64,000 nt of DNA from [Flavobacterium] thermophilum (GTDB lineage: Bacteria > Bacillota > Bacilli > Bacillales > Anoxybacillaceae). The position numbers and the translations under genes were made by a program. Each line of letters begins with the position of its first letter. Position 1 is the first letter of the stretch. Shown in pieces: positions 47,820-57,664 of the stretch. Where the stretch lies: the NCBI GenBank assembly GCA_900450595.1, contig UGGS01000002.1:682001-746000 (forward strand), given 5' to 3'. The notes beneath the pieces are model-generated. The model was not told the DNA's origin. It saw only the letters and a program-made list of their open reading frames with translations, and made no database searches.

Positions 47820-47908
47820 GCTGCTTCCTCCTCTAAGATGCCTCTTACTTTTACATATTTCCTAATGATGGCGTCGATAAAACGTAAAAAATTACCATAT
47901 TATCGCAG

Positions 47909-47938
47909 TGAATAACGGGCAAAAAACGTTCCAAACTA
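47909..47938 (+). promoter_or_regulatory. Sigma-G-like promoter of the SASP gene
   Basis: TGAATA, 17-base spacer, CAAACTA, against the forespore sigma-G consensus TGAATA-N17/18-CATACTA: one mismatch. Transcription would start near 47945, exactly where the structured leader begins. Confidence 0.72.
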
Positions 47939-47944
47939 TGAGTA

Positions 47945-48092
47945 CCGCCAGCGAAACAGGCCGCCTGCCAAAACACTTCCGCTGGCGAACGCAAAAGCAG
48001 GTGGGCCGTTGGGTTCAGCCAAGCTTGGCAGCACGCTTCTTCGCGTGCAGCGCTGGTGCAAATCCAGCCAACCCAGCCATCAAAATTTCTAA
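47945..48092 (+). promoter_or_regulatory. Structured 5' leader of the SASP mRNA
   Basis: Unusually dense pairing potential. CGCCAGCG (47946) pairs perfectly with CGCTGGCG (47980). GGCCGCCTGC (47959) pairs with GCAGGTGGGCC (47997) with one bulge. These two helices interleave, so they form a pseudoknot or exclude each other. Next, 48010-48079 can fold like a tRNA: 6 of 7 acceptor pairs, GCC/GGC D stem, GCACG/CGTGC anticodon-like stem, GCTGG-TGCAAAT-CCAGC T-arm, then GCCA. The ribosome site follows at about 48092. No coding sequence is present. Confidence 0.6.
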
Positions 48093-48108
48093 GAGGAGAT
48101 GATCAACT

Positions 48109-48321
48109 ATGGCACGCAACAACAACAATAACCAACTGCTCGTCGCTGGTGCCCAACAAGCGATCGACCAAATGAAGTACGAAATCGCCCAAGAATTTGG
48201 TGTGAACCTTGGCGCTGACACGACTTCGCGCGCAAACGGTTCGGTCGGCGGGGAAATTACCAAACGCCTTGTAGCGATGGCTCAACAACAACTCGGCGGC
48301 CAATTCGGCAACATTCAATAA
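48109..48321 (+). CDS. Alpha/beta-type small acid-soluble spore protein
   Basis: Binds and protects spore DNA, converting it toward A-form. 70 residues from ATG 48109 (AGAGGAG upstream). The GPR protease site is in [12 protein letters not shown], and the second DNA-binding block is [21 protein letters not shown], both typical of the family. The N-terminus has an asparagine run ([11 protein letters not shown]). A sigma-G-like promoter and a 160-base structured leader precede it. Several paralogues are usual per genome, so I give no gene letter. Confidence 0.95.
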
Positions 48322-48351: not shown

Positions 48352-48384
48352 CAAAAGCCCCAGGCAGTCAGCCTGGGGCTCTTC
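48352..48384. terminator. Terminator between the SASP gene and the CNNM gene
   Basis: AGCCCCAGGC pairs with GCCTGGGGCT around a five-base loop. Confidence 0.85.
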
Positions 48385-57522: not shown

Positions 57523-57566
57523 GCATACAAATTTTCCAATGCGGCCAAAGCCGGCCTGCAGCTCCT

Positions 57567-57664
<98 letters not shown>

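Follow-up and report, generated by a model that had tools for sequence, protein, structure and literature searches.

The leader analyzed here, of a gene for an alpha/beta SASP (a DNA-protecting spore protein), contains a tRNA-Gln-like structure with its own encoded CCA, and we consider it probable, from comparison of the leader with its relatives, that this tRNA-Gln mimic lets RNase P shape the 5' end of the mRNA. The structure lies on the plus strand at 48010–48079 of the window (the whole stretch of DNA analyzed, 64,000 nt), and this tRNA-like half of the leader is conserved far beyond the source genome. An earlier, sequence-only reading of this DNA had proposed a leader that stabilizes or times the spore-protein mRNA; processing by RNase P is more specific than that proposal.

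The SASP gene and its leader

The SASP gene (48109–48321, plus strand, 70 aa) is preceded by a ribosome binding site (AGGAG, 48094–48098, plus strand) and has a terminator-like hairpin 3' of it (48356–48380, plus strand). Homologs of four genes beside the element-bearing SASP gene of B. subtilis are found at about 38.3–43.5 kb of the window, so the gene is probably the sspB orthologue. A sigma-G-like promoter (−35 element TGAATA at 47909–47914 and −10 element CAAACTA at 47932–47938, plus strand, with a spacer of 17 nt) gives a predicted start at about 47945, that is, at the first helix of the leader, where the sequence-only reading had placed it. Using our own scoring with a sigma-G consensus over only the 140 nt upstream, and plain base shuffles as control, we found promoter-like sites upstream of the element in 157 loci with a mean score of 9.1 of 9.5 (7.3 for the shuffles); the element would therefore fall inside the transcript. 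The median distance from the end of the −10 element to U1 is 32 nt (156 loci).

All pairs of the cloverleaf that had been described at 48010–48079 are present. The acceptor-like 5' strand (48010–48015) pairs with 48070–48075, and the seventh position (48016/48069) is a C-C mismatch here. It is followed by a D-like arm (48018–48029; stem 48018–48020/48027–48029, loop AAGCTT), an anticodon-like arm whose sequence and length are free between species (48031–48048; stem 48031–48036/48043–48048), a T arm with the 7-nt T-loop TGCAAAT (48052–48068; stem 48052–48056/48064–48068), and a discriminator G with CCA (48076–48079), all on the plus strand. The MFE structure of 48006–48082 is this cloverleaf (z-score −3.58, none of 200 shuffles as good), and the whole 148-nt leader has a z-score of −1.91 (10 of 200 shuffles as good). 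Elsewhere, the z-scores are −2.65 for a B. subtilis-like leader (5 of 200 shuffles as good), −4.71 for locus L086 and −3.87 for locus L032.

The two helices described for the 5' part of the leader (47946–48007, plus strand) are present as well: an 8-bp helix (47946–47953 with 47980–47987) is interleaved with a bulged 10-bp helix (47959–47968 with 47997–48007). Their proposed role as the core of a switch is not supported, as they are confined to the genus, show little covariation and are followed by no terminator-like site before the gene on the plus strand. The region 47945–48008 folds no better than shuffles (z-score −0.49, 62 of 200 as good). We counted pairs in 9 of the 14 leaders of the genus (on the plus strand of their loci, with L003, L006, L009, L010 and L012 left out): 91.0% of the cells are paired as compared to 90.0 ± 0.6% in shuffles (50 of 500 as high), and 3 cells are changed on both sides as compared to 1.2 ± 0.9 (31 of 500 as high). 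Slid partners give 30.8–49.0% paired cells, the tested structure having been drawn from one of the same sequences. The five leaders outside the count are in the genus alignment, where L003 breaks one pair of the second helix. In the 5' part, the interleaved pairs do exist, as a feature of the genus, with no support from folding energy and weak support from covariation. Between the element and the SASP gene of the window we found no terminator-like site on the plus strand, and a transcription-attenuating switch was rejected for this leader on that ground.

Covariation and anatomy of the tRNA-like half

The 41 loci from the family of the window contain 36 distinct sequences, which were aligned with MAFFT (alignment A1, structure-free and not fitted to a model). 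RNAalifold recovered the four-arm cloverleaf from A1, 99.0% of the pair cells are kept in the 36 sequences, and 37 cells are changed on both sides as compared to 11.6 ± 2.8 in shuffles (0/500) and 0–5 for slid partners. The compensatory changes in homologous leaders that had been suggested as a check are thus found for the tRNA-like half; with the MFE fold they bear out the proposal of a structured leader whose 3' half resembles a tRNA. In a wider alignment of 84 sequences (A4), both-sides changes occur at 14 of 20 pairs, with all four arms represented, and number 256 cells (63.7 ± 10.9 in shuffles, 19–42 for slid partners); since A4 was fitted to the covariance model R1, these counts lean towards the structure.

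In A4, U1-A72 is kept in 83 of 84 elements and the second acceptor pair is G-C in all 84. The seventh acceptor pair is standard in 55 (A-T in 51, T-A in 3, C-G in 1) and non-standard in the other 29, including 14 C-C cases, to which the window belongs. CCA is kept in 82 of 84, and the base before it is A in 65, G in 18 and C in 1 (a purine in 83 of 84). The T-loop reads T-[G/T]-C-[A/G]-A-N-T with few variants; A58 is found in every T-loop listed, and position 55 is G in 73 elements and U in 11. The D-loop has 4–8 nt, the anticodon loop 1–46 nt and the variable region 0–3 nt. Among the 84 elements, neither a 7-nt UUG loop nor any shared anticodon-loop sequence is kept.

As a side observation from A4, GG is found in the D-loop of 8 of the 11 U55 elements and of 5 of the 73 G55 elements, as if the elbow contact were swapped (loci L070, L071, L078, L086, L099, L103, L112 and L116); the link is only suggestive, and most of the U55 elements are apparently from a single family.

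Distribution and gene context

A DNA search with 47860–48110 matched most of the leader in all 14 genomes of the genus of the window, and gave matches in 41/41 genomes of the family (9 genera), all 41 with a SASP ORF downstream of the element. In the other 27 genomes of the family, the match is limited to the tRNA-like half and the ribosome site (query positions ~146–251), joined in some of them by the promoter (~16–87), so the tRNA-like half is family-wide and the interleaved helices are a feature of the genus.

We searched 397 genomes of the order with R1, which matched real tRNAs too. From these matches, 53 loci were picked by score and length: two are tRNA-Gln, and the other 51 are elements that all precede a SASP ORF (51/51, which given this choice is not a random sample). 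An independent pattern scan, blind to context, matched at least 120 stretches; among the matches listed, 79 of 80 loci have a SASP ORF just downstream, and the edge of the 80th locus falls just past a SASP-like start. Nearly all of these loci are from Bacillaceae-type genera, with one record each named Paenibacillus bovis and Sporosarcina globispora. A second model (R2), built from the 84 sequences, gave one match per genome at E ≤ 5e-9 in 95 of the 397 genomes of the order, covering 16 of the 47 families sampled; this count is stringent and a lower bound, and the downstream gene was checked for part of the 95.

Among 398 genomes of the class, matches of at least 59.8 bits are found in 19 genomes, all of the order of the window, and the best match outside the order is a tRNA-Gln (54.4 bits). 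Candidate elements outside the order were rejected: the 11 matches of 81 nt that were checked proved to be tRNA-Gln, including 7 from a single family outside the order. Within one further genus (that of genome G250), all 44 genomes have matches, and in every genome one match differs in length from tRNA-Gln (counted from the table).

In genome G448, which we take to be B. subtilis 168, SASP genes are found at 1050049, 1413818, 2156275 and 3025463; the SspB-type gene carries the element (44.0 bits), and the leader of the SspA-type gene shows none. Judged from this match, the element apparently also leads the sspB mRNA in B. subtilis. The two other SASP genes of the source genome (L016 and L018) show no element in the 200 bases before each. 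By eye, sspA-type leaders (L303, L307, L299, L289, L302, L306, L016, L284 and L300) carry another short motif that is conserved in the promoter/leader region and includes an inverted repeat (TGTGT..ACACA) a little upstream of the likely −10 element.

Relation to tRNA-Gln

When R1 was run over tRNA loci of the source genome (10 of 30 loci in the ranking), the top five rows were tRNA-Gln with 40.7–46.8 bits, representing four distinct tRNA-Gln genes (L325 and L332 overlap), and the next was tRNA-Ile with 31.4 bits. This ranking, U1-A72 and the letters shared in the D arm and acceptor point to descent from, or close mimicry of, tRNA-Gln. The element resembles tRNA-Gln(UUG) and its precursor in the letters of the acceptor, D arm and T arm, in U1-A72, in R-CCA and in a Y−3 R−2 flank (a pyrimidine at −3 and a purine at −2); it differs in having no anticodon, a shorter D-loop and mostly G55, and in lying within an mRNA leader.

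tRNA finders do not take the element for a tRNA. ARAGORN called no tRNA or tmRNA in the window and none of the 51 R1-selected elements as a tRNA. Rfam gave nothing at E ≤ 5 over the leader of the window, and the tRNA family reached its threshold in 1 of 20 loci (L086, 29.1 bits with a threshold of 29.0) and in none of 15 other loci. An ordinary or decayed tRNA gene was rejected, because compensatory changes preserve the fold from family to family and the anticodon is absent.

The 5' flank, the CCA and RNase P

The element of the window has a pre-tRNA-like 5' flank (48007–48009, plus strand: C at −3, G at −2, T at −1). The Y−3 R−2 pattern is found in 152 of 157 elements, and in 92 of 95 and 30 of 31 after thinning of similar flanks, as compared to 1–33 of 95 for the same pattern at neighboring dinucleotide steps. 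In real tRNA genes it is found in 14 of 14 tRNA-Gln, 11 of 13 tRNA-Asn (which also have T1) and 47 of 96 tRNAs with G1; these controls were taken from L311–L340, L348–L358, L109, L117 and L046–L048, after dropping 30 rows (25 T-starting tRNAs other than Gln and Asn, 4 C-starting and 1 A-starting). The bases at −3 and −2 exist only in a precursor, from which we infer the action of RNase P.

With stacked acceptor and T stems, a T-loop, a 3' R-CCA and a 5' flank of the pre-tRNA type, the element has the features of an RNase P substrate. Judged from the alignment, what is kept corresponds to what RNase P reads, and what varies corresponds to what synthetases and ribosomes read. According to PMC4919913, RNase P reads the stack of T arm and acceptor, any RNA that presents this stack should be cut, and CCA acts as an antideterminant of RNase Z; the SASP gene would thus stay attached. 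RNase P would cut the leader at 48009/48010, as it cuts a pre-tRNA, and leave a tRNA-like 5' end that would shield the SASP message, the presumed benefit being that 5' exonuclease acts poorly on an end sequestered in a helix. Stabilization of the message by the leader is plausible.

Another use of the CCA, pairing with the start codon (AUGG), was rejected, despite a GCCAU–AUGGC pairing in a 206-nt fold: CCA persists in 11 of the 12 elements that precede a gene with another start and in 71 of 72 with an ATGG start, so start-codon pairing does not explain it.

Several points stand against RNase P processing. The flank could be a relic of the duplication of a tRNA-Gln gene, although it is kept while the surrounding bases are not. 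The near-invariance of U1-A72 is not accounted for by RNase P alone, and 29 elements, the window included, have no standard seventh acceptor pair. In the genus of the window, pairs of G48008 with C48077 and of T48009 with G48076 are possible and might hinder cutting; tRNA-Gln genes have flanks that permit the same pairing.

A second cloverleaf and alternative functions

A second tRNA-like structure lies between the first element and the gene in all 12 loci examined, which were chosen for a long gap to the gene or as known doubles (L105, L111, L127, L129, L130, L158, L159, L164, L150, L167, L188 and L160, from Mesobacillus, Neobacillus and related records). This second domain has a TTC-type T-loop and no CCA; its MFE structure is a cloverleaf in 11 of 12 (z-scores −1.2 to −2.6), and by eye the Y−3 R−2 flank is found in 1 of 12. 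A domain that keeps the fold without the RNase P marks suggests that the fold itself is of value. The fold seems to have value beyond cutting, which is a caution against a cutting-only reading.

These second domains, together with a stable fold so near the predicted start, are what would be expected if a compact fold near the 5' end stabilized the mRNA or helped ribosome loading with no cut by RNase P. We regard this as unlikely, though it is the alternative that fares best, since it leaves the near-invariant CCA and the Y−3 R−2 flank unexplained. A sensor or decoy is quite improbable; in this reading GluRS, the GatCAB amidotransferase or another protein that binds tRNA-Gln would recognize the mimic and repress or time translation of the gene. 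It would fit tRNA-Gln as the nearest tRNA and the conservation of U1-A72, which is a mark for GatCAB, but the elements share no anticodon and their CCA lies inside the RNA. Nor does protein content speak for glutamine sensing: SASPs with and without the element show no difference, with 10.3% and 11.2% Gln, respectively, in 8 genomes (only SASPs passing the filter; no ORF was obtained for 5 of 37 loci).

The same features that suggest RNase P processing would also fit a cut that starts decay, producing a 5' monophosphate and turning the message off. SASPs are made in large amounts, and the new end, lying within the acceptor helix, would be a poor entry site, so we give this reading very little credence. 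That RNase P and a second nuclease also release a small tRNA-like RNA from the leader is the least credible of all: the fold is complete and has a CCA, but that CCA discourages RNase Z (PMC4919913) and no anticodon is conserved.

Comparison with known systems and implications

Processing by RNase P at the 5' end of the element remains the reading that we favor, and the sequence-only reading's statement that no described class is like this leader agrees with what we found in databases and the open-access literature. At curated Rfam thresholds no family or riboswitch covers the leader, the sole exception being L086 with the tRNA family, and T-box gave no match over the leader at gathering score. 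(A TPP riboswitch, RF00059, is found elsewhere in the window, at 57555–57662 on the minus strand, with 87.9 bits.) Open-access full texts, a body in which subscription papers are mostly not covered, contained no description of the element that we could find.

Among known systems, the E. coli thrS operator is a case of tRNA mimicry in a bacterial mRNA leader, where anticodon arms are mimicked for its synthetase and translation is repressed or timed; in the element described here, in contrast, that arm is the one that varies freely. T-box leaders are likewise Bacillota leaders concerned with tRNA, but the element resembles a tRNA rather than binding one, and there is no terminator before the gene. 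tmRNA, named as an RNase P substrate in PMC4919913, also has tRNA-like ends with CCA; the element has no tag reading frame, and ARAGORN called no tmRNA. mascRNA/MALAT1 and other embedded tRNA-like substrates of RNase P present a tRNA-like fold inside a longer RNA (PMC12016569 and PMC4919913). In that human RNA the cut frees a small RNA, whereas the fold described here would remain part of a bacterial mRNA and keep its own CCA.

A wider picture for the Bacillales is quite possible, and we offer it tentatively. RNase P would make the 5' end of the sspB mRNA; a domain derived from tRNA-Gln would have been placed there before many of the families diverged, and would stay on as a tRNA-like cap that sets the life of the mRNA in the developing spore, with a second, uncut domain added in some lineages.

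Viral RNAs offer known examples of tRNA-like structures, as does a human non-coding RNA that RNase P cleaves. A conserved tRNA-like element that encodes its own CCA and sits in the mRNA leader of a classical sporulation gene, apparently that of B. subtilis included, would represent a new type of bacterial leader RNA. If RNase P does process it, a conserved class of mRNA would join the substrates of an essential ribozyme, and the fate of a spore mRNA would be tied to tRNA processing.
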